Below, piece after piece: positions 9,827 through 64,000 of a stretch of 64,000 nucleotides of DNA. Source of the stretch: Streptomyces sp. GS7 (GTDB lineage: Bacteria; Actinomycetota; Actinomycetes; Streptomycetales; Streptomycetaceae); contig NZ_CP047146.1 of the NCBI RefSeq assembly GCF_009834125.1, positions 8,772,501 through 8,836,500 on the forward strand, given 5' to 3'. Within the stretch, counting starts at the first letter, position 1, and each line of letters opens with the position of its first letter. Made by a program: the position numbers and the translations under genes. The notes under the pieces were generated by a model. That model made no database searches and had not been told where the DNA came from. It worked only from the letters and a program-made list of their open reading frames with translations.

Positions 9827-9911
9827 GGTAGCGTGTCCGAGCGGCCGAAGGAGCTCGCCTCGAAAGCGAGTGTGGCGCAAGTCACCGAGGGTTCAAATCC
9901 CTCCGCTACCG
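9827..9911 (+). tRNA. tRNA-Ser (anticodon CGA, codon UCG)
   Basis: The acceptor GGTAGCG (9827-9833) pairs with CGCTACC (9904-9910). The anticodon stem is CTCGC/GCGAG with loop CTCGAAA, giving anticodon CGA. A long variable arm (TGTGGCGCAAGTCACC region) identifies a class II serine tRNA. The T loop GTTCAAATCC is intact. No CCA is encoded. The tRNA remains complete although an integrase gene follows directly. Confidence 0.96.
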
Positions 9912-16298: not shown

Positions 16299-16375
16299 GT
16301 CGGTTCCCGAAACCCCCTCTCTCACCAGAGAACCATTCTTTCGCAAGGAGTTCCTTGCGCATCCCGGAGTTCCCC

Positions 16376-50423: not shown

Positions 50424-50467
50424 CCCCTCCGGTCAGCTTCGGTCGAATTCAGTCATCTTGGCCGATT

Positions 50468-50490
50468 GTATCGTCACGAAGTGACGATAC
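50468..50490. repeat. 23-bp palindrome upstream of the relaxase
   Basis: GTATCGTCAC and GTGACGATAC flank a GAA spacer, 45 bases before the relaxase start. It could be a relaxase or accessory-protein binding site at oriT, or an operator for relaxase expression. Confidence 0.6.
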
Positions 50491-50567
50491 CTTGGTCCTC
50501 TAAATTCAAGATCATGATCAACGAGGGCGAACCTCGGGCACTCGGAGCGGCCTGGTCGCTCCTGCGG

Positions 50568-50588
50568 ATCAGGCTCCTGGAGCCTGAT
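50568..50588. repeat. 21-bp palindrome in the oriT candidate region
   Basis: ATCAGGCTCC and GGAGCCTGAT flank a single T. It would form a tight cruciform or hairpin in single-stranded DNA. Confidence 0.55.
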
Positions 50589-50708
50589 GTCCTGTTGGAC
50601 TGTTACCTCTGTGCGAGGCGCGCGGGCTGAGGCGCCGTACGCGTTGAGGCGGTATGACGATCCGATGTCGGTGTAGTACCTGCGCGGGGCTGTGTCGTTG
50701 GCCCGCCT

Positions 50709-50903
50709 ATGGAGCACACCCCGTATCCGGCGGCTTCCCGCCGGTTCGCCGAGTTGTCGGGCCCGTACTGGATGGCCTCGGACTCCCCGGCGTACGGAGT
50801 CGACGCGGAAGGCCGGTTCGGACCGGGACGTCAGACTCCGCCCCCGCAACCGGGCGAACGGCCGGAGGGAGGAGCGGGCTCCCGACAGGCGGGGGGCTCG
50901 TAG
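50709..50903 (+). CDS. Possible small Pro/Gly-rich protein
   Basis: A 64-codon ORF from ATG 50709: MEHTPYPAASRRFAELSGPY, then a Pro/Gly-rich tail. The first 35 residues look protein-like, but no ribosome site is evident. It may be a real small gene or a relic. Confidence 0.35.
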   Translation: MEHTPYPAASRRFAELSGPYWMASDSPAYGVDAEGRFGPGRQTPPPQPGERPEGGAGSRQAGGS

Positions 50904-50977
50904 CCGCCGATATGTCGCCCTGCTGTCGGGTCGAGCGGTCTTGGTTGGGCCCTGCCCGACCCGCAAGCGCCTGGTGA

Positions 50978-51024
50978 CATGACGAAGGTCCCCGCTCCGG
51001 GTCGGAGCGGGGACCTTCGTCATG
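50978..51024. terminator. 21-bp perfect hairpin terminator
   Basis: 50978-50998 is perfectly complementary to 51004-51024 with a GGGTC loop, the longest uninterrupted stem in the window. It ends the minus-strand operon that starts at 51882 and could also serve the plus-strand ORF at 50709. Confidence 0.9.
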
Positions 51025-51048
51025 CTGGCCGTGTGGCTCGGCCGACGG

Positions 51049-51225
51049 CTATGTGTTCAGGGGCCACTCGCCGAACGGCACCGGCGCCTGACCTCGGGCT
51101 TCGCGAACGGCTTCCTCCGTACCGCACGTGGTGCAGATAAAGACCTCGCGGTCGGTGGTCAGACGGGAACGTGCGGGCCGTTCACCGAGCGGGCCGCCGC
51201 AGCGCGGACAGCGGGTGTCGGGCAC
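51049..51225 (-). CDS. Small zinc-ribbon protein
   Basis: A 58-residue protein, GTG 51225. CPRCGG (6-11) and CTTCG (31-35) form a zinc ribbon. It begins three bases after the stop of the next gene upstream, so it is co-transcribed with it. Similar tiny ribbon proteins are common on Streptomyces plasmids; the role is unknown. Confidence 0.75.
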   Translation of the reverse strand: MPDTRCPRCGGPLGERPARSRLTTDREVFICTTCGTEEAVREARGQAPVPFGEWPLNT

Positions 51226-51228
51226 GGG

Positions 51229-51882
51229 TCACTCCTCGGGGTGCTCGCGAGCGGAGTTGAGGATGAGGTTCCAAGTCGGGCGGGAGTAGGTCTTCTCCGT
51301 CTGCCCCTGAAGCTGCGGGATCAGTTCGGCGTTCTTCGCCCCGGGGTTCGCCGCAATGGCCTGCCGTGCGAGGGTCAGCCGCTCGTCTCCTTGGTACGGG
51401 TAGGCCAGTCCGCGGCGGCCGGTGGGCCGTCCGCCGGCGTGCCCGCGGCCCTTGCGGTCCGCGAGGTACTGCCACAGCCTCCAACGCTTCCACTTCGGAC
51501 GCCGCCGGGTCGGTAGCTCGTCCCAGTCGTCGGGCGCGGGCCACCCCTCGGGCGGGTTCTTGACGTAGTGGGAGACGGTGGTGGAATCGGCGAACCCGCA
51601 GACCTTCGCAGCTTCGGCGGGGCCGACCATCTCTTCGGGGTCGCCGTCGAGCTTCGGCGGGTTGGTGGTGCTGGCGGCGGCGCGCTGCCGCTGAAGCTCG
51701 TGGTGCCACGTCGCCCATACGTCGCCGTCCCAGTGCATGACGCCGTCGATGGTGTCCGCGACGGGCGGGTGCCCGTTGTTCTCCCGGTCGGTCCAGAGGT
51801 TCTGAAGCGTCGGCTCGCTGATGCCGTGGACCTTGCGCAGGTCCGCGCGTGAGTAGAGCGTGCGGCCGGTCTTGCGGGACAC
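51229..51882 (-). CDS. HTH-containing plasmid-type protein
   Basis: A 217-residue protein. GTG 51882 has AGGAGG 6 bases upstream, which decides the start. Two DNA-binding-like parts are visible: LYSRADLRKVHGISEPTLQNLWTDRE near the N-terminus and VGPAEAAKVCGFADSTTVSHYVKN in the middle, followed by a basic Trp-rich segment. It may be an adaptor or regulator of the plasmid-type genes. No named family recognised. Confidence 0.7.
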   Translation of the reverse strand: MSRKTGRTLYSRADLRKVHGISEPTLQNLWTDRENNGHPPVADTIDGVMHWDGDVWATWHHELQRQRAAASTTNPPKLDGDPEEMVGPAEAAKVCGFADSTTVSHYVKNPPEGWPAPDDWDELPTRRRPKWKRWRLWQYLADRKGRGHAGGRPTGRRGLAYPYQGDERLTLARQAIAANPGAKNAELIPQLQGQTEKTYSRPTWNLILNSAREHPEE

Positions 51883-51926
51883 GGTCGCCTCCTGTTCTTG
51901 GTCGGGGTCGTGACCGCTCGGCACGG

Positions 51927-52205
51927 TCACTGGATGTCGTCCGGGTCCGGGGCCGGCGCCCACGTACGACTGCCCGCCGGTTCGAGCCGGGTGAGGGTGG
52001 CTATGTCGGCCAGGGGGACGGCGGCGGCCCAGTCGGCGCGGCCTGGGTGGTCGACGGGGAGGTTGAGCACGAGATGCCGGCCGGTCGGGGGGAAGTCCTC
52101 GACGATGACGAAGCTGTCGCCGGGGTCGGCGCCGATGCTGTTACCCCTCGTGAGCTGGGCGATGTCGCCGGGCTGGGGACAGTCGGGGTGTCGGTCGCAT
52201 AGCAT
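51927..52205 (-). CDS. Hypothetical small plasmid-type protein
   Basis: A 92-residue protein from ATG 52205. It has an N-terminal MLCDRHPDCPQPGDIAQLTRG with a Cys pair and a conserved-looking AAVPLADIATLTRLEPAG end. The leader carries CTCTCACCAG (52219-52228) and, further up, the diverged promoter-like copy E. Function unknown. Confidence 0.65.
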   Translation of the reverse strand: MLCDRHPDCPQPGDIAQLTRGNSIGADPGDSFVIVEDFPPTGRHLVLNLPVDHPGRADWAAAVPLADIATLTRLEPAGSRTWAPAPDPDDIQ

Positions 52206-52405
52206 GGTGGGGTTCTTTCTGGTGAGAGAACATCGACGGCCAGCGCCTTGTTGCCCTTGTGCGCTGGCCGTCATCTGTTGTCTGGGGTGCGTGGCGCCCG
52301 TGGGACGCACGGCCGGTCGGAGGTTGCCCGCTCCGCTGACGGCGGAGTAATTAAACCACCTTTGGGTTGAGCGGGGCGGGGCCCTGATCCGGAGGACGGC
52401 GGTCA
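52206..52405 (-). promoter_or_regulatory. Leader cassette copy E (diverged)
   Basis: The TTTAAT box (minus strand, 52355-52350) and the hairpin core GGGCAACC with flanking CGACCG resemble the other cassettes, but the -35 hexamer is not recognisable. GGAG pairs with CTCC around the core, a covarying change from the G/C pairs in the other copies. CTCTCACCAG follows at 52228-52219. Confidence 0.5.
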
Positions 52406-53014
52406 TCAGAAGAGAGCCCCTTGATCTGTAGGGCGTCGGCCCCGGTCGATGGGTGGCCGGGTGACGCGGAGTTCGTAGCGGGGGCGTCCCGTGTACGGCG
52501 GGGCGTGAGCTTCGCGGCGGTAGCGGCGCCACGCCACGACGGGGGCGCCCTGGTCGATCCAGCCCGCCGGGTACTGGGAGGTGAGCTGAGCCCAGCGGCT
52601 CCGGCTGCGCGGGACGGCCCACCGGTCCTCGACCGTGGTGATCGGCGGCAGCGCCCGCCAGCCGGGGAAACAGTGGTCGTGCGCGTCCTCCACCGCCTCG
52701 TTGTCACCGTCCCCGAACCCGTTGCCGGAGTGCACGGGGCCTTCCCACTCGCACGCGAGACACCCGCCCCGGAACTCCTGCTCGTCCCCCCGGCGGCCGG
52801 TCGGCCGGCTGCGGGAGAGCAGGGTCGGGGCGTGGTGTTCGGGCGGGTCCAGCTCATGGCCGAGGTCGCTGTACGCGCCGCCGGGGTGTCCGGGCTGAAT
52901 GTGCCACGCCTGCCCGGCGCTCCCGGGTGACTGGCGCGTCCGCGCGTTGCGCACCCGCCAGTAGTACGTCTGCCGTGCCCGTGCTCCGGTCGGCTCGGCG
53001 ACGGTCGCGGTCAT
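52406..53014 (-). CDS. DUF6349-like protein
   Basis: A 202-residue protein. CLACEWEGPVHSGN with a following DAHDHCFPGW suggests a Cys/His metal site, as in the DUF6349 family of Streptomyces plasmids. Much of the rest is Arg/Gly/Pro-rich. ATG 53014 overlaps the stop of the upstream gene (ATGA), so they are translationally coupled. Confidence 0.65.
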   Translation of the reverse strand: MTATVAEPTGARARQTYYWRVRNARTRQSPGSAGQAWHIQPGHPGGAYSDLGHELDPPEHHAPTLLSRSRPTGRRGDEQEFRGGCLACEWEGPVHSGNGFGDGDNEAVEDAHDHCFPGWRALPPITTVEDRWAVPRSRSRWAQLTSQYPAGWIDQGAPVVAWRRYRREAHAPPYTGRPRYELRVTRPPIDRGRRPTDQGALF

Positions 53015-53412
53015 GATGGCCCACCCCCGGCGGCGGCGAGCACTTCGCGCAGAGGATCAGCGAGTACGGCCTGTTCGTCCGGGGCGTCGAGGAATCGGGA
53101 CCCGTACGCGCGGCGCACGGCCCGGCGGGCGTCCTGGTGGCGGTCGAGCTCCGGGTAGTACGGCGATCGGTCGAGCACGTCATAGCCGTGCTGGGTGAGC
53201 ACGGCGGAGATGAGCGACCGGACCCGTACCGGGTCGAGGGCGGTGAGGTCGGTTTCCCCCGGGGCCGCGAGGAGTACGCGGATCAGCTCGGCCGCGGTGA
53301 GCCGGGGTTGAAGGGGGACGCCGACTCGGTGGACGCCGTCCCGGCTGGGGGTGGCGGCTCCTCGGCGGCTCGGCGTCCTGGTGGTGCTGCGGGCTTCTGT
53401 CGTCTCGTCCAT
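53011..53412 (-). CDS. Hypothetical small helical protein
   Basis: A 133-residue protein from ATG 53412. After a polar start comes a helical domain (LTAAELIRVLLAAPGETDLTALDPVRVRSLISAVLTQHGYDVL ... RRAVRRAYGSRFLDAPDEQAVLADPLREVLA). It overlaps the DUF6349-like gene by four bases. No family recognised. Confidence 0.65.
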   Translation of the reverse strand: MDETTEARSTTRTPSRRGAATPSRDGVHRVGVPLQPRLTAAELIRVLLAAPGETDLTALDPVRVRSLISAVLTQHGYDVLDRSPYYPELDRHQDARRAVRRAYGSRFLDAPDEQAVLADPLREVLAAAGGGPS

Positions 53413-53456
53413 CGTGCTGGCCTTCGATGACTCGGGATGCTGTCGGGCGTCGGGTG

Positions 53457-53885
53457 TCAGAACAGGGCGTGTTCGGCGCGGGCGGCGGCGGTGCGGAACG
53501 CGTGGGCGGCGTCGGCGGCGGTGCGGCCGGGCTCGGCGCTCCACCGGTCGATGGCCTCGCGGTGCAGGGCTTTGGCGGCGGCGGGGTCGTCGGCGTCGAC
53601 GGGGTGACCGGTGAGGGTTTCCGCGAGGATGCCGAACGCCTGGTCGCGGGCGCGGTCGATGCGGTCCCAGTCGTACGTCCGGCCGGCGGCTCCCCGCCCG
53701 TGGCCGGCTGCGACTTCGAGGGCGCCGCGCGGCCAGCACGGCAACGTGGCCGTACGGCCGGGACCGGCGAACAGACGGGGGCCCTGGTGGATGCCGACGT
53801 GTTCGATGTGGCGAGCGGCCCATTGCAGGATCGCGGCGGGGGTGTCCGCGATGACGATGCTTTCGGGGGTGTGGCGGGTCGGCAC
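53457..53885 (-). CDS. DUF6197-like protein
   Basis: A 142-residue protein from GTG 53885. The N-terminal half (ILQWAARHIEHVGIHQGPRLFAG, LPCWPRGALEVAAG) and the distal EAIDRWSAEPGRTAADAAHAFRTAA fit the DUF6197 pattern found in phages and plasmids of actinobacteria. The fit is by eye. Confidence 0.6.
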   Translation of the reverse strand: MPTRHTPESIVIADTPAAILQWAARHIEHVGIHQGPRLFAGPGRTATLPCWPRGALEVAAGHGRGAAGRTYDWDRIDRARDQAFGILAETLTGHPVDADDPAAAKALHREAIDRWSAEPGRTAADAAHAFRTAAARAEHALF

Positions 53886-53948
53886 GGTGCTGTCCTTCGG
53901 GAGGGCGGGGGCGGCGGCGCGCTGCCGCCGCCGCCCCCGGTGGGGCTG

Positions 53949-54593
53949 CTAGTGGTAGGCGGTGATCAGTCGGCGGACCTTGTCCTCTCCGATGCACCCG
54001 CCCTTGTGACGGCGCGCGCTCGGCGGCTCTCCGTTGCGACCGCGCAGGTGGCTCCAGAACTTCGGGCCTTCCCACGGGCACAATTCACAGCTGAGGAACC
54101 AGTGGTTATCGCTGCCGGGGAACCCGGTGAGGACTGCCCGCCAGTGGTGGGCCCGGAGTCCCGCGAACGCGATCTGGGCGCCCTCGATGTTGCGATCGTT
54201 GACCGGCATCCGCGGGTGCAGGAGAGGCACCGGCCCGCACAACGGTGTGGGGGCCTCGGCGAGCACCTGGTCCAGGGGGACGGCGCCGATCCGACCGGCG
54301 GCGTACTGCTCCGCGAGATGGGCGGCGGCCATCTCGGTGCCGGGTGTCCCCTTCGGCGGGCGGCGGAGGTTGCGTTCGCCCTCGGTGGTGACGACGAACC
54401 AGTCCCGGTGCCACCTGTAGGCGCGGCCGATGACCTGGTCATCGCCGATGATCACGGGGTATCGGCACTGGATGTCGGGGGCGCCGACGCGGTACGTCGG
54501 GACGGTGGTGGTGCCCTCGGTCGCGGGGACGATGAGCCTGCCCGCTTCGGTGTCGGTGACGGTCGCGGGTCGTTCGAGGAGTTGCGTGGTCAT
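53949..54593 (-). CDS. Hypothetical plasmid-type protein with zinc-finger-like tail
   Basis: A 214-residue protein from ATG 54593. The C-terminal CELCPWEGPKFWSHLRGRNGEPPSARRHKGGC has a CxxC...H...C arrangement, which is a likely metal site and is reminiscent of the CLACEWEG motif in the 52406 product. CTCTCACCAG lies at 54617-54608. Function unknown. Confidence 0.65.
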   Translation of the reverse strand: MTTQLLERPATVTDTEAGRLIVPATEGTTTVPTYRVGAPDIQCRYPVIIGDDQVIGRAYRWHRDWFVVTTEGERNLRRPPKGTPGTEMAAAHLAEQYAAGRIGAVPLDQVLAEAPTPLCGPVPLLHPRMPVNDRNIEGAQIAFAGLRAHHWRAVLTGFPGSDNHWFLSCELCPWEGPKFWSHLRGRNGEPPSARRHKGGCIGEDKVRRLITAYH

Positions 54594-54665
54594 GGTGGTG
54601 CCCTGTTCTGGTGAGAGAGGGGCCCGCCCCAGGGCGCTCGGCCGCCGGGGCGGGCGGGGGCGTGG

Positions 54666-56354
54666 TTACGCGGCCTCGGCCGGGGCCTGAGGGGCGGCGG
54701 TCCATTCACGGCGCGGGGTGACGCCCAGGTCCGAAAGGACCGGGTCGAGACTCCCGTTGTCGGGCACCCATTCCCAGTCGGCACCTTCAACGCCGGGCCG
54801 ATCCGTCCAGGTGAGCATGTAGGAGCGGCCGGAGGTGCGGGGGTCGCCGCACACGGCCTGTGCCTCGCGACGTGTCATCGCCCACAAGGCGCGCTTACGG
54901 GAGCGGCGGGAGTTCTTCGAGGCGATGAGCACCAGCGCCATGTCCTCCTGCCTGTTCTCCCCCGCGGCGGGGGCCGACGCGGGGGTCGGCTTCCCTTCGG
55001 GGGCGTGGTGGCAGTGAGCGCACCGGCGTACTTCCGCGTGCCACTGGCTGGAGTGGCACATGGGGCACGTCTCGGCCACCGGTGCCGACTCCTCGACCGG
55101 CGGGGCCTGCTCGGCCTGCTCCTGGTGTTCGGTGGCCTCCGGGGCGGGTGCGGGCCCGGCCTTGAAGTTCTGCGGCTTGGCGTACCCGCACACGGTGCAC
55201 ATGCCGCGCGCCGTGCTGAACCGCTTCTCGCCCTTCGCCACGCGCTTGCAGTGCGGGCACACGGTCCGCTCTGCCTCGGGCTCGGGCTCCGTCGCTTCAA
55301 GGCGCGCGATGTCGGCGCCGCTGGCCCATCCGCGCACCGCGTCATACGGAAGGGTCTGGGTGTCGCAGGTGCACCGCTTCCCGCCCTTACACGGCGAGGG
55401 GTGCCCGTAGTACACCGTTCCGGCCGTGCACTCGCGGTCTCTGGACCGCATCACCGTCATACCGGTACGGGTCAGCAGGTGTGGCACGGTCACGCTCTTC
55501 TTGTTCACCCGCAGCACCTCGCGCCAGGTGCCGCCTGCGTTCACGAAATCGCCCTTCGTGAAGTCGTCGGGCCCCCACACCTTGAAGCCCCGGGCCTCAG
55601 CCTCAGCGATCACCGCTTCCTCAAACGCGATCTTCTCCAGGACCACGTCCCGCTCAGTGGCCAGCGTTGCCAGACCCTCCGGCGTGGTCGAGCTGGTGAA
55701 ACCGCACGCGGACTCTCCGCGCTGCCACTTCTCGATGTCGCGGAGCTCCTTACGCAGCTTCTCCAGGCGCCGCAAGGTCCGGTTGGGGTCCCGGCGGAAC
55801 GCCTCGAAGTGCTCGGCCGCCGCCGCACGGTCAGCCCAGTAGGAAGCCTTCCGGCTCTCCTCGATACCGCGCCGCATGTGGTTGTCCATGCGTTCGACGT
55901 CGCGGCGGTGCCTGCGCTCCGAGTGGTGACCGATCTTGATCGGCTCGCCGGTCATGTACTCCGAGATGTCGTGCGCGGCCCGGTGCGCGCCCTCGGCCCG
56001 GGAGGCGGCGTTCCCGGCGTATTCGGCGTAGCGCTCGGTGCGGGCCTCGGCGCGCTCGATCCGCTCGGCCTCCGCTTCGGCGTAGCTGCGCCGCTTGTGG
56101 TCGTCGATGTCAACGGCGACTGTGTACCCGGCCTCTTCGAGGTAGCCGCGCAGCTTGTTGACCGTCCACCGGTCGGCCGCGTGATCCCGGGAGTGGCGCA
56201 GGTACCAGCACTGAAGGTCATGCCCCCAGCGGAAGGCCAGGCCGCCCCGGCGCCCGTACTCCTTGCGCATGAGGATCTTCCCGGCCTCGTCGCCTTTCTC
56301 GGTCCCCTCGACCAGGGTTCCTTCTCGGCGGGTGTGGGTGATCTTGATAGTCAC
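54666..56354 (-). CDS. DUF3560 protein with C-terminal zinc ribbons
   Basis: About 562 residues from GTG 56354. The DUF3560 core (AEAERIERAEARTERYAEYAGNAASRAEGAHRAAHDI, then GEPIKIGHHSERRHRRDVERMDNHMRRGIEES) is clear. The C-terminal half adds several Cys pairs: CTCD, CPHC...CTVC and CPMC...CAHC, so at least two zinc ribbons. DUF3560 proteins are widespread on actinobacterial plasmids; function unknown. The 330-base leader is highly structured. Confidence 0.85.
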   Translation of the reverse strand: MTIKITHTRREGTLVEGTEKGDEAGKILMRKEYGRRGGLAFRWGHDLQCWYLRHSRDHAADRWTVNKLRGYLEEAGYTVAVDIDDHKRRSYAEAEAERIERAEARTERYAEYAGNAASRAEGAHRAAHDISEYMTGEPIKIGHHSERRHRRDVERMDNHMRRGIEESRKASYWADRAAAAEHFEAFRRDPNRTLRRLEKLRKELRDIEKWQRGESACGFTSSTTPEGLATLATERDVVLEKIAFEEAVIAEAEARGFKVWGPDDFTKGDFVNAGGTWREVLRVNKKSVTVPHLLTRTGMTVMRSRDRECTAGTVYYGHPSPCKGGKRCTCDTQTLPYDAVRGWASGADIARLEATEPEPEAERTVCPHCKRVAKGEKRFSTARGMCTVCGYAKPQNFKAGPAPAPEATEHQEQAEQAPPVEESAPVAETCPMCHSSQWHAEVRRCAHCHHAPEGKPTPASAPAAGENRQEDMALVLIASKNSRRSRKRALWAMTRREAQAVCGDPRTSGRSYMLTWTDRPGVEGADWEWVPDNGSLDPVLSDLGVTPRREWTAAPQAPAEAA

Positions 56355-56683
56355 TGAACTGGTCTTTTCTGGTGAGAGTTTGTGGTCCGGCCGGAGGGTG
56401 GACCGTGTGCTGGCAGCGGCGCTGCACCACGGGCGCGGGCCGTGAGGGACGATCGGCTCGCGGGTCGTCGCGCCTGCGCGGCGACAGGGGCTGTCGCGCC
56501 CCGGCGGGGCGCGTCCGCTGCGGTCCGGTGCCCGTCGTCGGTCGGCGGAGCCGCCTGCGGCGGAGTCGGCCGGCGGCGGTGAACGCACCGGACCTGTCCT
56601 GCCGCCCCGAAGGGGTGTCCGCTTGGGTGCTGGGGCCCGCAGGTCCGGAGGTGTTGCCCTCCCCCGGACCTGCGGGGCCTTGG
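56355..56683 (-). other. Structured leader upstream of the DUF3560 gene
   Basis: 329 bases without a gene. It contains a terminator-like stem (56636-56648 with 56664-56676) next to the upstream gene's stop, a large hairpin with arms GGTCCGGTGC and GCACCGGACC (56522-56531 and 56585-56594), a small GCGACAG/CTGTCGC hairpin (56480-56496), and CTCTCACCAG at 56378-56369. Possible riboregulator; unproven. Confidence 0.5.
56636..56676 (-). terminator. 13-bp hairpin after the 56684 gene
   Basis: 56636-56648 pairs perfectly with 56664-56676. The loop contains GTTGCCCTCC, the core also used in the leader cassettes. Confidence 0.7.
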
Positions 56684-57106
56684 TCAGCTGCGGTGGAGCG
56701 TGTGGCGGGCGGCCGGGTCGGCGTCGGCCAGTCCGGCCCGCTCGCGCCATGCCTGGCGGACGGCGGCGCGGAGCGCGTCCCCGTCGTCGTAGGCGAACCG
56801 GCCCCGGCGCAGGCTGCGGACGATGTCGCGGAACGTGTCCTGGTGCATCGTGGTCAGCGTGTCGTCCAGCGGGGTCAGCTCGTGCGGGAACATCGCCTGG
56901 ACGCTGTCGCCCGGCTGCGGGGCACCGAGGGTGAAGAACCAGACCACGGACATGGTGGCCTCGTCCGCGAACTCCGGCCCGCCGAACGGGCCGACGACGA
57001 CGGCGGGGCGGGTGTCGAGCTGGTGGCCCCGGAACCAGGGTCCGCCGATCACGAGCGTCGCGGTGGGGAAGTCCTGGACGGTGGGCTTCTGGTCGGTAGT
57101 GAGCAT
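56684..57106 (-). CDS. Hypothetical plasmid-type protein
   Basis: A 140-residue protein from ATG 57106. The first half is beta-rich (TLVIGGPWFRGHQLDTRPAVVVGPFGGPEFADEATMSVVWFFTLGAPQPGDSVQAMFPHELTPLDDTL); the end is helical. In-frame ATG 57202 in cassette A would extend it by 32 residues, so a longer product is possible. Family unknown. Confidence 0.65.
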   Translation of the reverse strand: MLTTDQKPTVQDFPTATLVIGGPWFRGHQLDTRPAVVVGPFGGPEFADEATMSVVWFFTLGAPQPGDSVQAMFPHELTPLDDTLTTMHQDTFRDIVRSLRRGRFAYDDGDALRAAVRQAWRERAGLADADPAARHTLHRS

Positions 57107-57233
57107 GTCGTTCCTGTCCTGCCTGGTGAGAGGTCCCGCCGGGGCCGGTCGGGCCCGGCGGGGGTGTCGGTCGGGGGGTTGCCCTCCCCCTTCCGACACC
57201 ATTAATTAAACCATGTTCTTGGGTTTGGGTCAA
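57107..57233 (-). promoter_or_regulatory. Leader cassette copy A
   Basis: The promoter is TTGACC (57233-57228), 17 bp, TTTAAT (57210-57205). Two and five bases after TTTAAT come start-like codons (ATG GTG) that open MVSEGGGQPPDRH. The hairpin region of G-run, GGGCAA and C-run is at 57167-57191, and CTCTCACCAG is at 57132-57123. The -35 box overlaps the stop codon of the ArdC-N-like gene. Confidence 0.7.
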
Positions 57234-58120
57234 CCGGTCACGGCAAGTTCGCGGCGGTGCTCGGCGGCCATCGTGGCGGCGCGGGCGATGGCGCGGCCGG
57301 TCTCGATGGCCCGTACGGCGGACTCGTGAATCGGGGGCTTCTTGTCCTGGGTGATGATGCCCGCGAGCGGTGGCATGACGGCGGGGCCTGGAGCGATGTT
57401 CAGGATGAGCGCGGCGACGTGGGCGGCTGAGGCGACTTCGGCGGCGTGCTGGCCGGGAAGGGGGGCGTCCGCCTCGGTGATACGTCGCCACGCGTGGCCG
57501 TACAGGAGGATGCGGACGGCGTTGTCGGGGGCTTCCTGGGTGAAGTCGAACCCTCCGGCCTGCTCGGGGTCCTCGTGGTACTGGTCGCGGTACTGGTTCA
57601 CCAGGACATCGCGGATGACCTCGGCGGCGAGCGGGGCGGCGGCGGGCGGCTCGTAGGCGTCGCCGTCGGTCTGGCTGATGTCGAAAACCGGCCCGGCTTT
57701 GAAGCCGGACACCTTGCGCGTCTCACCCCCGGCGGTCTCGCCGGTGGCCTCGCGCTGCCCGCCGTCGGCGGCTGCGGCCGTGGCCTCCTGGCCCTCCTCG
57801 GGCCGCCGCTTGATCGGCGTCCAGATGCGGAGGGAGGTGGAGCCCTTGACCGGGAAGCGTCCGGCCTTTCGCCAGTCTCCGGAGCTGAGTACGTGGGTGG
57901 CGTTGGGGTGCTGGGCGGCGATGGCGATGCAGTTGGTGGGGCTGCGGTCGTCGCGGTCCGGGTGGGTCAGGTTCGCGGCCGTGCGCATGACGGTGGCCCA
58001 GAAGTCTTCACTGGCGACCATCGCGCCGTACGCGCGATCCATGACGGCTTCGAGTTCACCGCGCATCTTGGCGGAGTAGGCCCTGCGCTCTTCGTCGGTC
58101 ATCTTCGGCTTACGGGGCAT
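57230..58120 (-). CDS. ArdC N-terminal-like (antirestriction type) protein
   Basis: A 296-residue protein from ATG 58120. The ArdC-N ssDNA-binding pattern is clear: RSPTNCIAIAAQHPNATHVLSSGDWRKAGRFPVKGSTSLRIWTPIKR, then VSGFKAGPVFDISQTDGD. The metalloprotease domain of classical ArdC is missing: I see no HExxH. ArdC-type proteins protect incoming single-stranded DNA during conjugation. The C-terminal part (about 190-296) is a helical domain of unknown role. Confidence 0.82.
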   Translation of the reverse strand: MPRKPKMTDEERRAYSAKMRGELEAVMDRAYGAMVASEDFWATVMRTAANLTHPDRDDRSPTNCIAIAAQHPNATHVLSSGDWRKAGRFPVKGSTSLRIWTPIKRRPEEGQEATAAAADGGQREATGETAGGETRKVSGFKAGPVFDISQTDGDAYEPPAAAPLAAEVIRDVLVNQYRDQYHEDPEQAGGFDFTQEAPDNAVRILLYGHAWRRITEADAPLPGQHAAEVASAAHVAALILNIAPGPAVMPPLAGIITQDKKPPIHESAVRAIETGRAIARAATMAAEHRRELAVTG

Positions 58121-58242
58121 GTCGCGGTCCTCCTGGTGAGAGATCGTCCGGGGCCGGCTGGCCCCACGGTGTCGGTCGGGGGGTTGCCCTCCCCCTTCCG
58201 ACATCATTAATTAAACCATGTTCTTGGGTGATCGGCAACCCC
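58121..58242 (-). promoter_or_regulatory. Leader cassette copy B
   Basis: The promoter is TTGCCG (58238-58233), 17 bp, TTTAAT (58215-58210). Start-like ATG ATG follows, opening MMSEGGGQPPDRH, in frame with the ArdC-N-like gene. The hairpin is within 58170-58197. CTCTCACCAG at 58142-58133 adjoins an AGGAGG ribosome site. Confidence 0.7.
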
Positions 58243-58602
58243 CTAAATCCAGTACAACCCTGCTTCGTTGCTCACGGCCCGGTATGCGGCTATGACCTCA
58301 TCCTCTATTTGCGTCCAGCGTTCGAGGATATCGGGGGCGGTCTTGTTGTCGCTGGCCGCGCGCTTGGCCCTGCGCCACTCAATGGCGATTTTGAGTGTGC
58401 GGAGTTGGGAACGGGTCAGTTCCCATCGGCCGGAGTCCGGGAGTTGATCGCCGTAGGCCATCGCCACGGCGTTGTTGATGTGCTCGGTGCCGGACCACAC
58501 GTCCTGTGTAGCCTGGAGCGCAAGAGCGCGTTTGAGGATGCACCGGAGGTGCGGGGCCTGCACGATCCATTGCGGCTCGATCGTGAATACATCGGCGCTC
58601 AT
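58243..58602 (-). CDS. Hypothetical helical protein
   Basis: A 119-residue protein from ATG 58602. Almost entirely helical (ILKRALALQATQDVWSGTEHINNAVAMAYGDQLPDSGRWELTRSQLRTLKIAIEWRRAKRAAS). Codon use is less GC-biased than its neighbours, which suggests recent acquisition. No family recognised. Confidence 0.65.
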   Translation of the reverse strand: MSADVFTIEPQWIVQAPHLRCILKRALALQATQDVWSGTEHINNAVAMAYGDQLPDSGRWELTRSQLRTLKIAIEWRRAKRAASDNKTAPDILERWTQIEDEVIAAYRAVSNEAGLYWI

Positions 58603-58661
58603 CCTGGGGCCTTTCTGGGGGGCGGCGCGCTGGGGTAGCGCGCCGCCGTGACGCGTGGGAA

Positions 58662-59294
58662 TTAGAGGGCGTATCCGTCGACGTATTCGCCGCGCTCTCC
58701 CTCGGGGGTCTGAACATGGGGAAGGAATCGGCTCACCGCGAATACGACGGCGTCAGCGATAATCCGGGGTACGTCGTTGAGTACAAGACTCACCGTGTCG
58801 CCGTCGAGTCCGATACGGACTTCGCCCGGTTCAAGATCCATGTAGACAAAGGCGGTTGTGCCGTCGATTCGGGTTCGCGCTCCGGGAAGTCGGGCGGAGA
58901 GATCGCGTGCGGCTTCCTCAACACCCCGGCGCATTGCGGCCTGTGCGCGGTTGTGCTCCTTCACCCGCTCGTGAACCTCGCGGTGCACGGGGATGAGATC
59001 GGCGGCGATCCGGGCCGCAATGTCCGCCGGGTCCTCGCTCATGGCAACTCGGACCGTGTCACGCTCGCCCCTACGGAACGGGTAGTCGGTGGTGGGGAAC
59101 GCGCCCCGGATGTGCAGATGCCCGGGGTCATCGAATCGCTCGGAGAGGTGGAGCTGTCGGCCGTCCAGGTGGGTGAACGTGGCGGCGTGGTCCAGCTCCT
59201 GGACGCCGTGGCGCGCGGGCTGCGGTCGCCAGTTTCCGCCGAGTTCGAGGGCGATCGGGTGGGACAGTTCCGCGACGGTGTGAGGCGTGTTCAT
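58662..59294 (-). CDS. Hypothetical plasmid-type protein
   Basis: A 210-residue protein from ATG 59294. An N-terminal beta-rich domain (ATFTHLDGRQLHLSERFDDPGHLHIRGAFPTTDYPF) is followed by a helix-rich segment (ADLIPVHREVHERVKEHNRAQAAMRRGVEEAARDLSARLPGARTRIDG). Function unknown. Preceded by cassette C. Confidence 0.65.
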   Translation of the reverse strand: MNTPHTVAELSHPIALELGGNWRPQPARHGVQELDHAATFTHLDGRQLHLSERFDDPGHLHIRGAFPTTDYPFRRGERDTVRVAMSEDPADIAARIAADLIPVHREVHERVKEHNRAQAAMRRGVEEAARDLSARLPGARTRIDGTTAFVYMDLEPGEVRIGLDGDTVSLVLNDVPRIIADAVVFAVSRFLPHVQTPEGERGEYVDGYAL

Positions 59295-59411
59295 CGTCCA
59301 TCTCCTGGTGAGAGAGGTTGTCGGCGGCCGGTCGGCCTACCGGGTGCCGGTCGGGGGTTGCCCTCCCCTTCCGACATCACTAATTAAACCATGTTCTAGG
59401 GGTTGGGTCAA
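59295..59411 (-). promoter_or_regulatory. Leader cassette copy C
   Basis: The promoter is TTGACC (59411-59406), 17 bp, TTTAAT (59388-59383), then GTG ATG opening MSEGEGNPRPAPG. The hairpin is one base pair shorter on each arm than in A (4 G, 5 C). The leader frame ends in a TGA overlapping the ATG of the main gene, so leader translation would couple to it. CTCTCACCAG is at 59314-59305. Confidence 0.7.
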
Positions 59412-59845
59412 CCCGGATAGACGCTCTGACCTGCTCTTTTCCTCCACCGGCGACCCGCACCCGCCCGGCCGGGCCCGGCCACAACGGGCCTGGGCGGGGT
59501 TCCCTCCTCGGTCGGACAGCTCCGCCGTATCAGGGTTCCGGGCGCGGTGTCCTGGCTCGCGCAGCGACCGCGTAGCGGCTTGGCCTGGACGCCGTGTCCG
59601 GGTTCCTGGTACGCCCCTTGGGGTGTCCGGCCGAGGAGGGAACCCCGCCTTCACCACCCGCACCACAACGGCGCGGCACCCGACCGACCAGCCCCCTCCC
59701 CCTCCGAGGAGGACCCGCCGGAGGCTGCCTTTCGCTCTGGCCGGCACCCAACGAATCTGTTCGCCGGAGTCGCTGTTGGTTGGACGCGGCGCCTGTGCGG
59801 CCGGGGTCCGCGGGTGGTGCGGAGGGCTCCTCGGATGCATCACCG
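59412..59845. other. Intergenic region with a long palindrome
   Basis: 434 bases without a gene between the end of 59846-60955 and cassette C. It holds the 157-bp palindrome (59493-59649). Positions 59650-59845 show only short GC hairpins near the stop of the 59846 gene. Confidence 0.6.
59493..59649. repeat. 157-bp long inverted repeat (structured element)
   Basis: The outer arms 59493-59517 and 59625-59649 are complementary over 25 bases with a single G-U-type mismatch (T59512). The inner part is a second imperfect inverted repeat around GGGTTCCGG...GTGTCCTGGC and GGCCTGGACGCC...GGGTTCCTG, with a short GCGACCGCG apex. The whole region would fold as one long stem in RNA or a cruciform in DNA. 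No ORF supports coding. Possible origin, terminator or a small inverted-repeat element. Confidence 0.75.
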
Positions 59846-60955
59846 TCACCACAAGGCGGGTTGCACGGCGGTGTGCCGGTGCAGGGGCAGGATGATCCGG
59901 ACGGGCGGGTTCGCGGGGGCGCCTGCTGCGGGGCGCGGGGTGTCCGCGCCGGGGCAGTAGCCGCCCTCGTCCTCCCACCGGTCGACGGCGTCGCGCTCGG
60001 CGCGGGCCTGCTGTTCGGTGAGAGTGACCGGCTTCCGGTACAACTTCCGCGCGCTGGAATCGAGCGGCGGGAGCACGCGGGCGGCGGCCTTCTGGTCGTC
60101 GCGGCGCTTGTGGCGTCGCCGGACCCGGGCGAACCGTGCCTCGTAGGCGGCCTGGTCGCTGCCGTGGAGCCCGGCGGGATGGAGCCGGGCCAGTTCAAGT
60201 GCGACTTGGCCCATCGGGCTGGGCGTCAGTACGCGGGTGCCGTCGTCCTGACGGACGGCGACGAGGAACCGCGCGGCGAACAGGGCCTGGGTTCGCTCGC
60301 GACTGATCCGCCGGCCACCGTTCCACACGCCGTGCCGCGCTGCCTGCCGGGCCCGCCCGCCTCGCCAGTACAGGCGCCCGGACGCGGCGGCCTCCAGCAC
60401 ACGGACGTGTCCCGCCGTCCAACCGAGTTCGGCAACGTGCCCTTCGGCGAGATACCGGTTCCTCGCCGCCCGGTCCCGGTTGTCCGCGTCCATGCCGGTG
60501 GCCGCGCGCTCCTCGGCCTCCTTCTCGGCTTCTTCCCGGCGGCGTTCGGTCTCCCGCTCGGCGTACTCGGCCGCCGTCAACTTCCGCTCCAGTTCGGCCC
60601 GCAGGTCGGCGGCCGTCGTCTCGACTCCGGCGGCCGACTGTGCCCGAACAGCGTGGTCGACGGCCGCACGGGCGCAGTACAAGGGGGCGCTGCTCGGCAT
60701 GGTGGGGTCGTCGGCGTATTGCTCGGCGCGGTCGGCGTGACCCTCGGCTTCGACGGCTTCCTTGTGGGCCGCGTGCATGGCCGCCTCCAGGCGGGCGGTG
60801 GCGCCGGATCGGTTGCGGCAGATGGCAGTCATGGCGTCGTCGGCTGCGGTGACGGCGAGGATCGCGGCCTGCCTGGCGATCTGGAGACAGGTCTGCGGAG
60901 ACGGGTCTCCCGCGGGGGCAACCTGATGTTGGACGGCGGACGCGTTCTTGGGCAT
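59846..60955 (-). CDS. Coiled-coil plasmid-type protein
   Basis: A 369-residue protein from ATG 60955. The middle (residues about 75-165) is rich in Ala/Glu/Arg heptads (HADRAEQYAD, LRAELERKLTAAEYAERETERRREEAEKEAEERAAT) typical of a coiled coil. The C-terminal half has an HTH-like segment (GRRISRERTQALFAARFLVAV) that resembles a winged helix. Function unknown; a structural or partition role is possible. Confidence 0.65.
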   Translation of the reverse strand: MPKNASAVQHQVAPAGDPSPQTCLQIARQAAILAVTAADDAMTAICRNRSGATARLEAAMHAAHKEAVEAEGHADRAEQYADDPTMPSSAPLYCARAAVDHAVRAQSAAGVETTAADLRAELERKLTAAEYAERETERRREEAEKEAEERAATGMDADNRDRAARNRYLAEGHVAELGWTAGHVRVLEAAASGRLYWRGGRARQAARHGVWNGGRRISRERTQALFAARFLVAVRQDDGTRVLTPSPMGQVALELARLHPAGLHGSDQAAYEARFARVRRRHKRRDDQKAAARVLPPLDSSARKLYRKPVTLTEQQARAERDAVDRWEDEGGYCPGADTPRPAAGAPANPPVRIILPLHRHTAVQPALW

Positions 60956-61331
60956 GGGGTGTTCCTCGGGATCTCGGCGGTGCGGTCGGCGGCGTGCCGT
61001 TCCGACGTCGGGGAGGTGCCGCCCGTGGTCGCGCGGAGCGCGATGGACAGGGCCGTCGTGCCCGCAGAGCACGTCCGTCGGCCCGGCGTCCGGACGGGAC
61101 GGGAGGGCCGCCCGCGGCCCGGACGTTTCGGCCGGCTGCGAGCCGGGCCGGGCTGAGTCGTCCCGGAGGGACGCCCTTCGTACGGGGGCCGGTGAGCGGG
61201 GCCGGCCGCCGACGCGGGTGGCCCCGGTCGGTGGTGGGCGGAGCGTGGGGTGGGCGGCTCGATGCCGCCCACCCCACGGCCCGGCGGCCGGGGTCCGGCC
61301 GGGCGGTGGCTCCGGCCCGGCCGGGCTGCTG
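60956..61331. other. GC-rich intergenic region upstream of the coiled-coil gene
   Basis: 376 bases. It contains the hairpin at 61244-61278 just after the stop of the 61332 gene. The rest is over 80% GC with many short repeats of CCGG-type sequence. I see no promoter of the cassette type and no gene I can support. Confidence 0.55.
61244..61278 (-). terminator. 15-bp perfect hairpin after the 61332 gene
   Basis: 61244-61258 pairs with 61264-61278 around a TCGAT loop. Confidence 0.8.
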
Positions 61332-62549
61332 CTACGCGGCGACCGGTTCGCGTGCGGCGACGCGGCACCGGGTGAGTACGGTCTGCGCGGTCTCGCCGTA
61401 GATGCTGTGGTCCTTGACCGTGCCGGTCAGCTCGACCTCGTCGCCCTGGTCGGGGACATCGGCGGCGGAGCTGAACCAGACGAACACGTTGCCGCTCGGG
61501 TCCTGGAACTTCACCAGTCGGCGGCGCTGGGTGTGGTAGCCGTACGTCCGGCCTTCCAGCTCGACCACGGTGGTGACGGTGGCGTTGGTGGTGATGCGCT
61601 CGCCCACGGTGCCCTGCGGCTTGCTGTTCTGGGCGGCGCGCTCGGTGGCCTCCTTCTCCTGGTCGCGGTACCAACCGGCGATGGCGGACACGAGCGTCGG
61701 CAGGTGGCGCGGGTCGACCGTTTCCGCCTTGGCGAGCTGGCCCACCTTGTGGCGGTAGTCGGAGAGGCTGCCGTATCCCTGGACGGCCCATGCCCGGACG
61801 GCGGCGGCGGTGGTCGGCGCGTCGGGGTCGGCGTCAATGGCAGCCCGCCAGTCCATCGGGGCCTTGCGGTCGAAGAAGTACGCTTCGACGCCGTCGGCGG
61901 TCGGCGGGGTGTTCTTCCACTGCTCGGACCGGCTGTAGAACCGGCCCTCCGTCTTGACGATGGCGGCGGTCACCCGAAGGACCTCGATCACCGGGACACG
62001 GAGATCGGCCGGGATGCCGCCCTCCTCGCCGTCCCAATCGGAGTCCTTCAGCGTGCCGAACCGCCACAGGGCCTCAAGCCCCTTGATCGGCAGACCGGTG
62101 TACGGCTCGACGCACGTCGTGCCCAACTGCCGCATCTCGCCGTTCTCGTGGCGCGCGAGATAGGTGGCGGTGCGGTGGCGGGCGACTGCGCACCCGTGGC
62201 AGAAGTTCTCGATGGCGCGGTACTGGCGCGCGGCCTCGGCGTCCTGCTCAGGAAGTCCGGGGAACAGGCTGGTGATCGTCTCGCCCTCCTCGTCGTGGTC
62301 CAGGCGGGCGATGACGGTCCAGCCGTGGTGACGGGGGATGTCACCGGAGATCGTCACGGTGACGGTGGGGCGCTGGCCGATCAGGCGGCCGTCGATGTCG
62401 TGGTAGTCGGCAAGGAACGGCTTGGAGATGTCGAGCGCGTACGCGCTGAGGTGGTGGACGGCGGCGCGGGCGTTGGTGGCCTCGACAAGCTGACGGACGC
62501 GGGACTGGGCCGTGGCGGGGATGGAAAACCGCATGGCTGCGCTGGTCAT
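61332..62549 (-). CDS. Hypothetical plasmid-type protein with zinc motif and OB-like end
   Basis: A 405-residue protein from ATG 62549. The N-terminal half holds CHGCAVARHRTATYLARHENGEMRQLGTTCVEPYTG, a plausible Cys4/His metal site. The last 90 residues (ERITTNATVTTVVELEGRTYGYHTQRRRLVKFQDPSGNVFVWFSSAADVPDQGDEVELTGTVKDHSIYG) have the strand pattern of an OB-fold, as in ssDNA-binding proteins. It could act on single-stranded transfer intermediates. Family name unknown; similar proteins occur in actinophages. Confidence 0.7.
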   Translation of the reverse strand: MTSAAMRFSIPATAQSRVRQLVEATNARAAVHHLSAYALDISKPFLADYHDIDGRLIGQRPTVTVTISGDIPRHHGWTVIARLDHDEEGETITSLFPGLPEQDAEAARQYRAIENFCHGCAVARHRTATYLARHENGEMRQLGTTCVEPYTGLPIKGLEALWRFGTLKDSDWDGEEGGIPADLRVPVIEVLRVTAAIVKTEGRFYSRSEQWKNTPPTADGVEAYFFDRKAPMDWRAAIDADPDAPTTAAAVRAWAVQGYGSLSDYRHKVGQLAKAETVDPRHLPTLVSAIAGWYRDQEKEATERAAQNSKPQGTVGERITTNATVTTVVELEGRTYGYHTQRRRLVKFQDPSGNVFVWFSSAADVPDQGDEVELTGTVKDHSIYGETAQTVLTRCRVAAREPVAA

Positions 62550-62715
62550 CGTGGGTGCTCCTGCTGGCGAGAGAGGAATCGAGGGCCCGGCCGGGCGGGT
62601 TGCCCTCCGCATGCGGCCGGGGTCGGGGCCGACTTACGGCCCGTGGTGTCGGTCGGCGGGTTGCCCTCCCCCTTCCGACACAATTAATTAAACCATGTTT
62701 TGAGGTGTGCGGCAA
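62550..62715 (-). promoter_or_regulatory. Leader cassette copy D (with duplicated hairpin core)
   Basis: The promoter is TTGCCG (62715-62710), 17 bp, TTTAAT (62692-62687), then ATT GTG opening VSEGGGQPADRHHGP and a stop. The hairpin core occurs twice, near 62655-62672 and again near 62596-62612 (GCGGAGGGCAACCCGCC on the minus strand). CTCTCGCCAG, one change from the other copies, is at 62573-62564. The TTTAAT box contains the TAA stop of the 62688-63110 gene. Confidence 0.7.
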
Positions 62716-63110
62716 GCAACCCGGCCGGGGATGTCGAGTGCGGCGCGGTCGCGCAGGAAGGCGGCGAACAGGGCGGCGGTGTAGCTGTCGGCGGTGCCGT
62801 ACGTGCGGCGGCAGTCCAGCGCTCCGATGCGCTCGCCCCTGTGGCGGACGGGGAACGGCTGGCCGGGGGCCGGGATGGCGAGCGCGTACAGTCCGCGCGG
62901 GGTGTCCACGCGCAGGACGACGGCGGCGGCCTGGTGGTCGTAGGCGGCGGACCAGCGGGCGGGCCCGATGCCGAACTCCGCGAGCCCGGACGCGATGGCG
63001 CGGGCCTGCATGATGTCGGCGGTGGTGCCGGGATCGGGCTCGGCGGGGGCTGGGACGCATCCGCAACCGTGATCGTCGGCGTGGGTCTCGAACAGAACTG
63101 TACGGGTCAC
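62688..63110 (-). CDS. Hypothetical small plasmid-type protein
   Basis: A 140-residue protein from GTG 63110, with GGAG 9 bases upstream. It contains HADDHGCGCVPAPAEP near the N-terminus and a well-ordered middle (AIASGLAEFGIGPARWSAAYDHQAAAVVLRVDTPRGLYALAIPAPGQPF). The stop codon lies inside the promoter of cassette D. No family recognised. Confidence 0.65.
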   Translation of the reverse strand: MTRTVLFETHADDHGCGCVPAPAEPDPGTTADIMQARAIASGLAEFGIGPARWSAAYDHQAAAVVLRVDTPRGLYALAIPAPGQPFPVRHRGERIGALDCRRTYGTADSYTAALFAAFLRDRAALDIPGRVACRTPQNMV

Positions 63111-63177
63111 TGTGGGGCTCCTGGGGCGGCCGGGGGCGGGCGGGATTCCCGCCCCCGGCGTCGGGCGGCTGAGGTGG

Positions 63178-64000
63178 TTAGGCGGCGGCTTCGTCGTCGC
63201 TTGCCGGGTCGTCGGCTTCCTCGGCCTCCGGCTCGCCCGTCTCCTCGTCGGTGCCGGGCTCCTGCTCGGCCTCCGGCTCACTGCCGGACGTGATCGCCGC
63301 GCGGGGCTTCTTCTTCGACGGGTCGTACGGCTCGTCGTCCACGACCGACTGCTCAATGGGCGTGAGCGGGTACCCGAGGGACGCGAGCACCTGGAACCAT
63401 CGGCCGGTGGGCGTCCGCGTCCACGGGGCGCGCTGGCTGTCCGTCCTCCACGCTGACCGGTTCGCGCACTTCTCCCGGACGGCGGCGATGGCGGCGAACT
63501 GAAGCTGCGGGGCCCTGCGGGGGTCCTTGGCGACGTGCCCGGCGAAGCTGCCCCGGTCCTTGGCCTGTTCGGTGTTCAGGCCCAGGAAGGCGGCCAGGAT
63601 CTCGGTCGTCGGCTCCTTGTTCAGATCGTCGCAGATTCCCCAACTGCCGTTCAGCAGAGCATTATTCACGTGCCCGATCAGGGTGTTGGTCGTGGTCTTC
63701 GGGAGGTTGCGCCGCTTGATCAGGTCAGTGATCCACTTCCGGCGCAGGGCCTCGGCCGCGTCCCAGTCAACGTTCCCCTTCTTGACGGCGGCGCGGGCGG
63801 CACGCTCGGCCTCCACCTGGGCGGCGGTCTTCGTGCCGCCGGTGCCGCTGCTGCCCTCGGGCACCGTGTGCCCGTACAGGCCGGGGGCGGAGCAGTAGGG
63901 CTCGTACCGGTCGCCCCGCCGCTCATCGAACACCCACACCTGCCCCTTGCACTCGGCGTGCTCCTCGGTGCTGATGCCGCGCAGTCGCCACACGGGCATG
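63178..64000 (-). CDS. ParB/Spo0J-family partition protein, 3' part
   Basis: The gene runs off the right edge; 273 residues of the C-terminal part are visible. A Cys/His-containing link (HAECKGQVWVFDERRGDRYEPYCSAPGLYGHTVPEG) is followed by the Streptomyces plasmid ParB-like helical domain (KTAAQVEAERAARAAVKKGNVDWDAAEALRRKWITDLIKRRNLPKTTTNTLIGH) and a long acidic tail. The ParB nuclease-like N-terminus must lie beyond 64000. It probably stabilises the element. Confidence 0.75.
   Translation of the reverse strand, partial: MPVWRLRGISTEEHAECKGQVWVFDERRGDRYEPYCSAPGLYGHTVPEGSSGTGGTKTAAQVEAERAARAAVKKGNVDWDAAEALRRKWITDLIKRRNLPKTTTNTLIGHVNNALLNGSWGICDDLNKEPTTEILAAFLGLNTEQAKDRGSFAGHVAKDPRRAPQLQFAAIAAVREKCANRSAWRTDSQRAPWTRTPTGRWFQVLASLGYPLTPIEQSVVDDEPYDPSKKKPRAAITSGSEPEAEQEPGTDEETGEPEAEEADDPASDDEAAA

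Follow-up and report, generated by a model that had tools for sequence, protein, structure and literature searches.

We present the analysis of a short non-coding cassette that recurs in a 64,000-nt stretch of the chromosome of Streptomyces sp. GS7 (the whole stretch is called the window; the genome measures 9.07 Mb), where it heads several operons of one gene block. The block lies on one strand and codes, in order, for a DUF2786 protein, a ParB-like protein, proteins of 140, 405, 369, 210 and 119 amino acids (aa), an ArdC-like protein of 296 aa, DUF6409, DUF3560, 214-aa, DUF6197, 133-aa, DUF6349 and DUF6211 proteins, a winged helix-turn-helix (HTH) protein of 217 aa and a TrwC relaxase. Five cassettes, A to E, are present, all on the minus strand (Table 1). 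In short, the cassette consists of TTG(A/C)C, 17 bp, TGGTTTAATTA, a hairpin with the loop AGGGCAAC, a second hairpin and CTCTCACCAG ahead of the Shine-Dalgarno (SD) sequence, about 110 nt in total. It is a conserved promoter-and-leader module of Streptomycetaceae mobile-type regions, new relative to the open-access literature searched, where neither the cassette nor the control of establishment genes in Streptomyces was found described; the first-pass annotation of the window had likewise known of no Streptomyces leader of this kind.

That annotation had listed four copies, A to D, sharing promoter-like boxes exactly 17 bp apart, TCGGAAGGGG, GGGCAACC and CGACCG, together with a diverged fifth copy. 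All of these lie where it placed them, and the observation was real and understated. The -35-like hexamer is TTGACC in A and C and TTGCCG in B and D, with exactly 17 bp to TTTAAT in all four, and members of the 73-nt family share 75-92% identity with the reference copy. When as many as three mismatches are tolerated, the 14-mer ACATGGTTTAATTA has 5 matches in the window against 0.13 expected (0 of 100 shuffles reach 5), that of cassette E at 52361-52348 carrying two mismatches. Two more exact copies are found beyond the right edge of the window (G000:C1:8837549 and 8839288, about window positions 65049 and 66788), and the whole chromosome holds six exact copies on a single strand within a span of about 9.6 kb. 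Individual cassettes differ in detail. Hairpin 1 of C is short of one G on one arm and one C on the other. Cassette D, scoring 74.5 bits with the covariance model R1 over 62617-62717, bears an additional hairpin with an identical loop at about 62610-62595, as D-type cassettes reuse the loop in their second hairpin. Cassette E carries GGGCAAC in two hairpins, one of them a terminator-like stem at about 52272-52235; in E-type leaders the loop is repeated in a long stem immediately before the box that precedes the SD sequence (the pre-SD box).

Pattern searches gave 152 distinct hits. We discarded 13 that came from unrelated taxa or from a viral contig, as well as one reverse-strand artefact due to a palindrome; the 138 retained copies comprise 126 of version I, nine of E-type and three from Kitasatospora. 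The consensus of 66 aligned leaders and 145 distinct model matches reads G-G-TTG(A/C)C, the 17-bp spacer, AACATGGTTTAATTA and then hairpin 1, NTGTCGG-AA-GGGG(G)-A-GGGCAAC-CCCC(C)-GA-CCGACAC, with its foot about 4-5 nt past TTTAAT. Downstream come, in this order, a second hairpin whose sequence varies, (C/T)TCTCACCAG, the SD sequence and the start codon. TTGCC or TTGAC is present in 116 of the 145 distinct rows of alignment A3. The invariance of GGTTTAATT and GGGCAA is partly a selection effect, the hits having been chosen on both; the RNA-model search, with a model itself built from those pattern hits, finds GGTTTAATTA in 142 of the 145 rows.

As the first-pass annotation had proposed, the block was searched for in plasmids and mobile regions, and it recurs in those of Streptomyces, Streptacidiphilus and Kitasatospora. 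The exact 14-mer ACATGGTTTAATTA occurs in 7 of 295 sampled Streptomyces genomes including this one, six with 4-6 copies and one with a single copy. A longer pattern retrieved 63 stretches from 84,980 species genomes, 51 of them from 24 Streptomyces or Streptacidiphilus assemblies, the remaining 12 being lone matches in unrelated taxa without the rest of the cassette. R1 matched 12 of 293 genomes of the order (2 of 9 genera) and 3 of 345 genomes of the class (1 of 126 genera), in surveys that contain this genome and that above 40 genomes apply strict filters by which weak matches are lost. Three of 72,556 plasmid records match, namely S. alboflavus pMDJK44.2 (MOBF), a Kitasatospora plasmid (typed non-mobilizable) and an S. 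europaeiscabiei plasmid (MOBP). The phage records searched gave no match, and the single match among viral contigs was judged by its context to be chance.

Every one of the 129 testable copies precedes an open reading frame (ORF) of 60 codons or more, whose start codon lies 13-26 nt downstream of the start of the pre-SD box. In GC-rich DNA the presence of a long ORF is by itself little of a control, but grouping by BLAST places 125 of the 129 ORFs in seven families, DUF6409 (24), 405-aa (22), ParB-like (22), ArdC-like (19), DUF2786 (18), 210-aa (11) and DUF6211 (9). The earlier suggestion of one cis element ahead of different genes is thereby borne out, and no testable copy stands without a downstream gene. 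In a relative, a C5 DNA methylase gene (L121, 4781-6463, minus strand; 35.4 bits, cut-off 22) lies immediately behind a cassette of another version (L121:6474-6567), and both adjoin a MobA/VirD2-type relaxase gene. Four stretches have a relaxase gene behind the block, of TrwC type in the window and L126 and of MobA/VirD2 type in L121 and L122.

Table 1 Cassettes, isolated pre-SD boxes and associated genes in the window.
Feature	Position	Strand	Details
Cassette A	57123..57235	-	TTGACC 57233-57228; TTTAAT 57210-57205; R1 match 122 bits; precedes DUF6409 gene
Cassette A leader	57200-57163 (hairpin 1)	-	loop GGGCAAC 57184-57178; then hairpin 2; pre-SD box CTCTCACCAG 57132-57123
Cassette B	58133..58240	-	TTTAAT 58215-58210; loop GGGCAAC 58189-58183; box 58142-58133; R1 119.2 bits; precedes 296-aa ArdC-like gene
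Cassette C	59305..59413	-	TTTAAT 59388-59383; loop GGGCAAC 59363-59357; box 59314-59305; R1 111.1 bits; precedes 210-aa gene
Cassette D	62564..62717	-	TTTAAT 62692-62687; loop GGGCAAC 62666-62660; box CTCTCGCCAG 62573-62564; precedes 405-aa gene
Cassette E (diverged)	52219..52372	-	GGTGGTTTAATTA, no TTGNC; box 52228-52219; R1 24.8 bits; precedes DUF6211 gene, then winged-HTH gene
Pre-SD box CTCTCACCAG without cassette	54608..54617	-	ahead of 214-aa gene 54593-53949
Pre-SD box CTCTCACCAG without cassette	56369..56378	-	ahead of DUF3560 gene 56354-54666
ParB-like protein, C-terminal part	63178..64000	-	591 aa, extends to ~64953; own cassette outside window
405-aa protein, phrog_2319 (function unknown)	61332..62549	-	behind cassette D
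210-aa protein, no family	58662..59294	-	behind cassette C
296-aa protein, ArdC-like family	57230..58120	-	behind cassette B
DUF6409 protein	56684..57106	-	behind cassette A
DUF6211 protein	51927..52205	-	behind cassette E
217-aa protein, two winged-HTH-like units, candidate regulator	51229..51882	-	follows DUF6211 in E operon
TrwC-type (MOBF) relaxase-helicase gene	45975..50423	-	block end; TrwC 130.1 bits

Hairpin 1 displays compensatory changes at the sequence level. In the covariation test that had been proposed for the block, 10 of its 14 pairs are changed on both sides among the 145 distinct rows (shuffle mean 4.2; 0 of 500 shuffles reach 10), a count that loses some weight as alignment A3 was fitted to the structure and model and the shuffles retain relatedness. 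In the real register 90.6% of cells pair, and slid partners give 1-4 pairs changed on both sides. An arm-swap test independent of A3 gave 5.75 pairs for arms of the same copy against 4.35 for swapped arms (largest of 200 swaps, 4.64). Less favourable to an RNA structure is the balance of G-U to A-C mismatch cells over the 14 pairs, 99 versus 79 (p 0.15, not significant); minus two basal pairs, a post hoc exclusion, it is 92 versus 30, basal pair 40-81 alone giving 49 A-C cells. The cassette matches no known structured RNA family: a scan of the window with Rfam 15 at the curated gathering score returned only a tRNA at 9827-9911 on the plus strand.

The pre-SD box is the second conserved part of the leader. 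CTCTCACCAG, immediately ahead of the SD sequence, has seven exact copies in the window against 0.16 expected, six of them in the cassette block; in the genome it has 14 exact copies, eight of which share a strand and fall within 8824719-8839220. Allowing a single mismatch at most, the box is present in 131 of the 138 copies. Among the seven exceptions, two are cut off by the end of their locus, three are of the Kitasatospora version and two (L053, L055) lack the box at the expected place. Within operons, the boxes at 54608 and 56369 head genes that have no cassette, which suggests that the box can act apart from promoter and hairpin. The exact copy far from the block (16319-16328, plus strand), in the context CCCTCTCTCACCAGAGAACC about 50 nt ahead of an ATG, is probably due to chance.

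With respect to the upstream part, we infer a promoter, favoured by its promoter-like geometry, in which a TTGNC element stands at an invariant 17-bp spacing from TTTAAT. The first-pass annotation had further read the transcript as leaderless, opening with MSEGGGQPPDRH at a start-like codon 2-5 bases after TTTAAT. Such a codon is indeed present, although in D it is TTG or GTG, and 117 of 126 copies have NTG 5 nt downstream of TTTAAT, as a functional leader peptide would lead one to expect; since this NTG sits at the foot of hairpin 1, pairing explains its conservation equally well. The peptide itself did not survive scrutiny. Frame and length are not kept, and copy C, with one G fewer and in another frame, does not encode MSEGGGQPPDRH. 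The distance from the start-like codon to GGGCAAC splits the copies 66 versus 48 between two frames, with 3 in the third; 105 of 113 frames read past the real start codon, and the frame relative to that codon is mixed (53, 35 and 25). Real starts are served by an SD sequence about 75-130 nt further downstream. That a leaderless peptide MSEGGGQPPDRH is the functional product is, in our judgement, extremely unlikely.

The placement of the cassettes is also reminiscent of the Frpo/ssi units of F-type leading regions, which are repeated non-coding units ahead of genes that aid the incoming element (PMC11541004). A single-stranded DNA (ssDNA) promoter active on the incoming strand would agree with the hairpins, with several operons on the same strand and with the relaxase genes adjoining the block in four stretches. 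Frpo/ssi units, however, bring -35 and -10 into a duplex by folding (PMC11541004), whereas folding of the cassettes with DNA parameters on both strands paired most of -35 and -10 together in 0 of 122 copies. Such a promoter is very unlikely here.

Diverged elements found with R1 carry other versions of the cassette, in which two or three parts differ from version I. In the order -10 box, loop and pre-SD box, version II (L035, L123) reads TGGTTCAATAG, GGGCAAC and CTTCACGA; version III (L119 and L120 of one contig, L124) AAGGCA(G/T)(A/T)ATTAG, TGGCAG(C/T) and CCTTCAAC; version IV (L121) (T/C)TGATTGAATTAG, GGGAATC and CCTCA(A/G)C(G/A); version IVb (L122) TTGAGAGTATTGG, GGGAATC and CCTCAAC; version V (L034, Kitasatospora) TGGTTTAATTG, GGGCAAC and CCACC(A/G)AC; and version VI (L125, one copy) AAGGTAAATTA, GGGCAAA and CCTCACAAG. 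The loop is common to versions I, II and V, and the -10 box and pre-SD box vary in most versions. In eight diverged elements all 28 copies have box, loop and pre-SD box of one version per element, under version patterns that were written after the copies had been seen and that permit single-base variation. One version per element in independent cassettes suggests that box, loop and pre-SD box are read by a factor that differs by element group.

The independence of the cassettes is at issue if they are recently duplicated or homogenised repeats without a function of their own, as their near-identical core parts could indicate. Several copies in genome G388 are almost identical over the full length, and recent copying is possible there. 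The second hairpins of version I, on the other hand, are class-specific, with 0.70 identity within a gene class across loci and 0.34 between classes in one locus, the level of unrelated pairs; version I cassettes are thus not recent copies of one another. Between species, flanks and second hairpins stay specific to the gene class, and 125 of 129 copies head recurring genes at fixed spacing. Functionless repeats are therefore hardly credible as an explanation.

Further pairings were considered and rejected. Pairing of the pre-SD box with its own SD sequence amounts to 3.37 pairs against 3.13 in shuffled sequences (standard deviation 0.09) but to 3.39 when swapped between copies. A helix joining the -15 region to the pre-SD box was hinted at by RNAalifold (UGGU/ACCA) and by look-alikes in other versions, but permutation over seven versions equals or beats the fit in 15% of cases. 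Complementarity of the -35 region with the loop, noted by eye only, was dropped because version IV alters the loop yet retains TTGACC.

The 217-aa protein of the E operon is a lead for the regulator of the cassettes. Its AlphaFold2 model has two winged-HTH-like units (pLDDT 85, pTM 0.48), and it matches an excisionase/regulator PHROG at E 0.0026. Members of its family, 37-94% identical, stand beside the block in ten loci with versions I, II, IV and IVb, and the E core lies upstream of the DUF6211 and winged-HTH genes in five of seven loci examined, the same pattern finding none in L126 and L123. The top Foldseek match is TraN of Enterococcus pIP501 (4p0y; E 0.33, TM 0.21 on the query), a weak structural match; like the candidate, TraN is a DNA-binding protein with tandem winged helices and belongs to a conjugative element. 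Lower ranks are taken by MerR-type proteins, BldC and an excisionase. TraN acts as a transfer repressor in pIP501. A sequence search of the PDB with the candidate gave no match.

From these sequence comparisons, we consider it about an even call that the cassettes are shared control units of an establishment-type regulon in a family of Streptomycetaceae mobile elements. Transcription would start at the foot of hairpin 1, and the units would let the ArdC-like, the ParB-like and, in a relative, the DNA methylase genes be co-expressed on entry into a new cell. A factor encoded by the element, most probably the winged-HTH protein, would bind the box over the -10 region and shut the regulon off; hairpin and pre-SD box would set mRNA stability or translation, perhaps via a second, RNA-binding factor, and the mechanism would thus operate at the DNA and RNA levels both. 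A stronger form, which we advance only tentatively, is a two-layer, coevolving private code in which an element DNA-binding protein or altered polymerase reads the -10 box and an RNA-binding factor reads the 5' hairpin and pre-SD box, each element commanding its own establishment genes and ignoring those of others in the same cell. Both establishment genes and the way in which they are controlled have been described for a few plasmids of proteobacteria and Bacillus. If the proposal is true, the cassette would be a sequence handle on arrival genes, including candidate anti-defence genes, in anonymous DUF-rich actinobacterial regions, and its versions a natural test of a cis code and its reader evolving together.

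Several observations weigh against an establishment regulon under a winged-HTH regulator. TTTAAT fits sigma-70 poorly, as the second position of this -10 hexamer is not A, and a standard sigma-70 promoter scan requiring that A detected no promoter in 50000-64000. Searches of the retrieved stretches of versions III (L119, L120, L124), V (L034) and VI (L125) did not find the HTH gene, and Foldseek gave no match at E <= 0.001 for the 217-aa model. In L033, L034 and L035 the retrieved stretches show no relaxase gene adjoining the block, L034 being the plasmid typed non-mobilizable. The Pfam search returned no match for the 296-aa ArdC-like protein, the family profile fails to retrieve a solved ArdC chain and no useful solved structure was found; when 10 members of the family were scanned with Pfam ArdcN (cut-off 22.6), the cut-off was exceeded by L124 (29.6 bits) and by the distant P0151 only, L119 reaching 21.5, P0109 19.0 and several members nothing. 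L124 has no detected cassette directly ahead of its ArdC-like gene, and L119, which has one, scores just below the cut-off.

ArdC-N has been described as an ssDNA-binding domain of conjugative elements (PMC5512222). Anti-restriction (ardC) membership of the family is suggested by a family name and a remote domain match, the window protein being below detection: an 80%-identical homologue (P0109) carries the NCBI name 'ArdC-like ssDNA-binding domain-containing protein', and the 296-aa protein itself matches phrog_7245 (anti-restriction) at E 0.0036. For the ParB-like family, ParB_N was found at 42.3 bits in a 94%-identical homologue (L037).

With only a candidate regulator at hand and the hairpin foot coinciding with the expected transcription start, the cassettes could instead be constitutive units, each a strong promoter with an mRNA-protecting 5' hairpin and no dedicated trans factor, kept in sequence as the genes need high expression. 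Protection requires neither a fixed loop nor a fixed 10-nt pre-SD box, however, and it leaves aside the non-standard -10 box and the box and loop versions that co-vary by element; we hold constitutive expression to be rather unlikely. Quite improbable is processive antitermination or attenuation, by which hairpin 1 and the downstream box would act on nascent RNA in a nut/put-like manner and let polymerase read through long operons. An invariant-loop hairpin at the very start of each operon and recurrence of the loop in the second hairpins of D and E would suit it, whereas a simple scan of the minus strand for intrinsic terminators in 50000-64000 found none, and CTCTCACCAG directly heading single intra-operon genes fits translation over elongation. 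No boxA-like site or NusG-type partner was identified either, in analyses with no search aimed at them.

The proposed regulon resembles the establishment-gene regulatory sequences (EGeRS) of Bacillus plasmids, where one conserved sequence lies ahead of several operons, including ardC (PMC8708921). The cassette, too, is a regulatory sequence conserved ahead of several operons within a single element. EGeRS2 (p576 and clade II pLS20-family plasmids) is, as there described, likewise a conserved promoter-bearing sequence heading several operons of a conjugative element; it includes an ardC gene and a regulator under one copy, the p576 repressor being encoded under one of its own EGeRS promoters (PMC8708921), and here the block holds an ArdC-like gene, a possible counterpart of ardC, and a candidate regulator in the E operon. 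The dual TTATCCC / TTATCCCnnTTATCCC operators of p576, in contrast, have 0 matches in the window at <=3 mismatches. The EGeRS2 regulator is a ribbon-helix-helix protein, whereas the cassette candidate is tandem winged-HTH-like by model, part of the window ORFs having been scanned for ribbon-helix-helix folds. Unlike EGeRS2 as that source presents it, the cassette is conserved through the 5' untranslated region to the SD sequence, with an RNA-type hairpin. EGeRS1 (pLS20) is similar in that a conserved, structured sequence immediately precedes the ribosome-binding sites of several putative establishment operons (PMC8708921). The same source gives EGeRS1 a length of 420-750 bp, multiple inverted repeats, no promoter activity when tested and a higher G+C content than that of pLS20, whereas the cassette is about 110 nt with TTGNC-17-TTTAAT. 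As the logic is shared but not the sequence, operator or regulator type, the cassette is not classed as an EGeRS member and is best described as analogous.

Two minor observations concern the surroundings of the cassettes. In the G320 element, a very long ORF (L122:12885-19853, minus strand, 2322 aa) is located upstream of the cassette-bearing block. In the window, the gap upstream of cassette C contains an inverted repeat (59493-59518 / 59624-59649) of 26 nt, 96% complementary, with its arms 105 nt apart.

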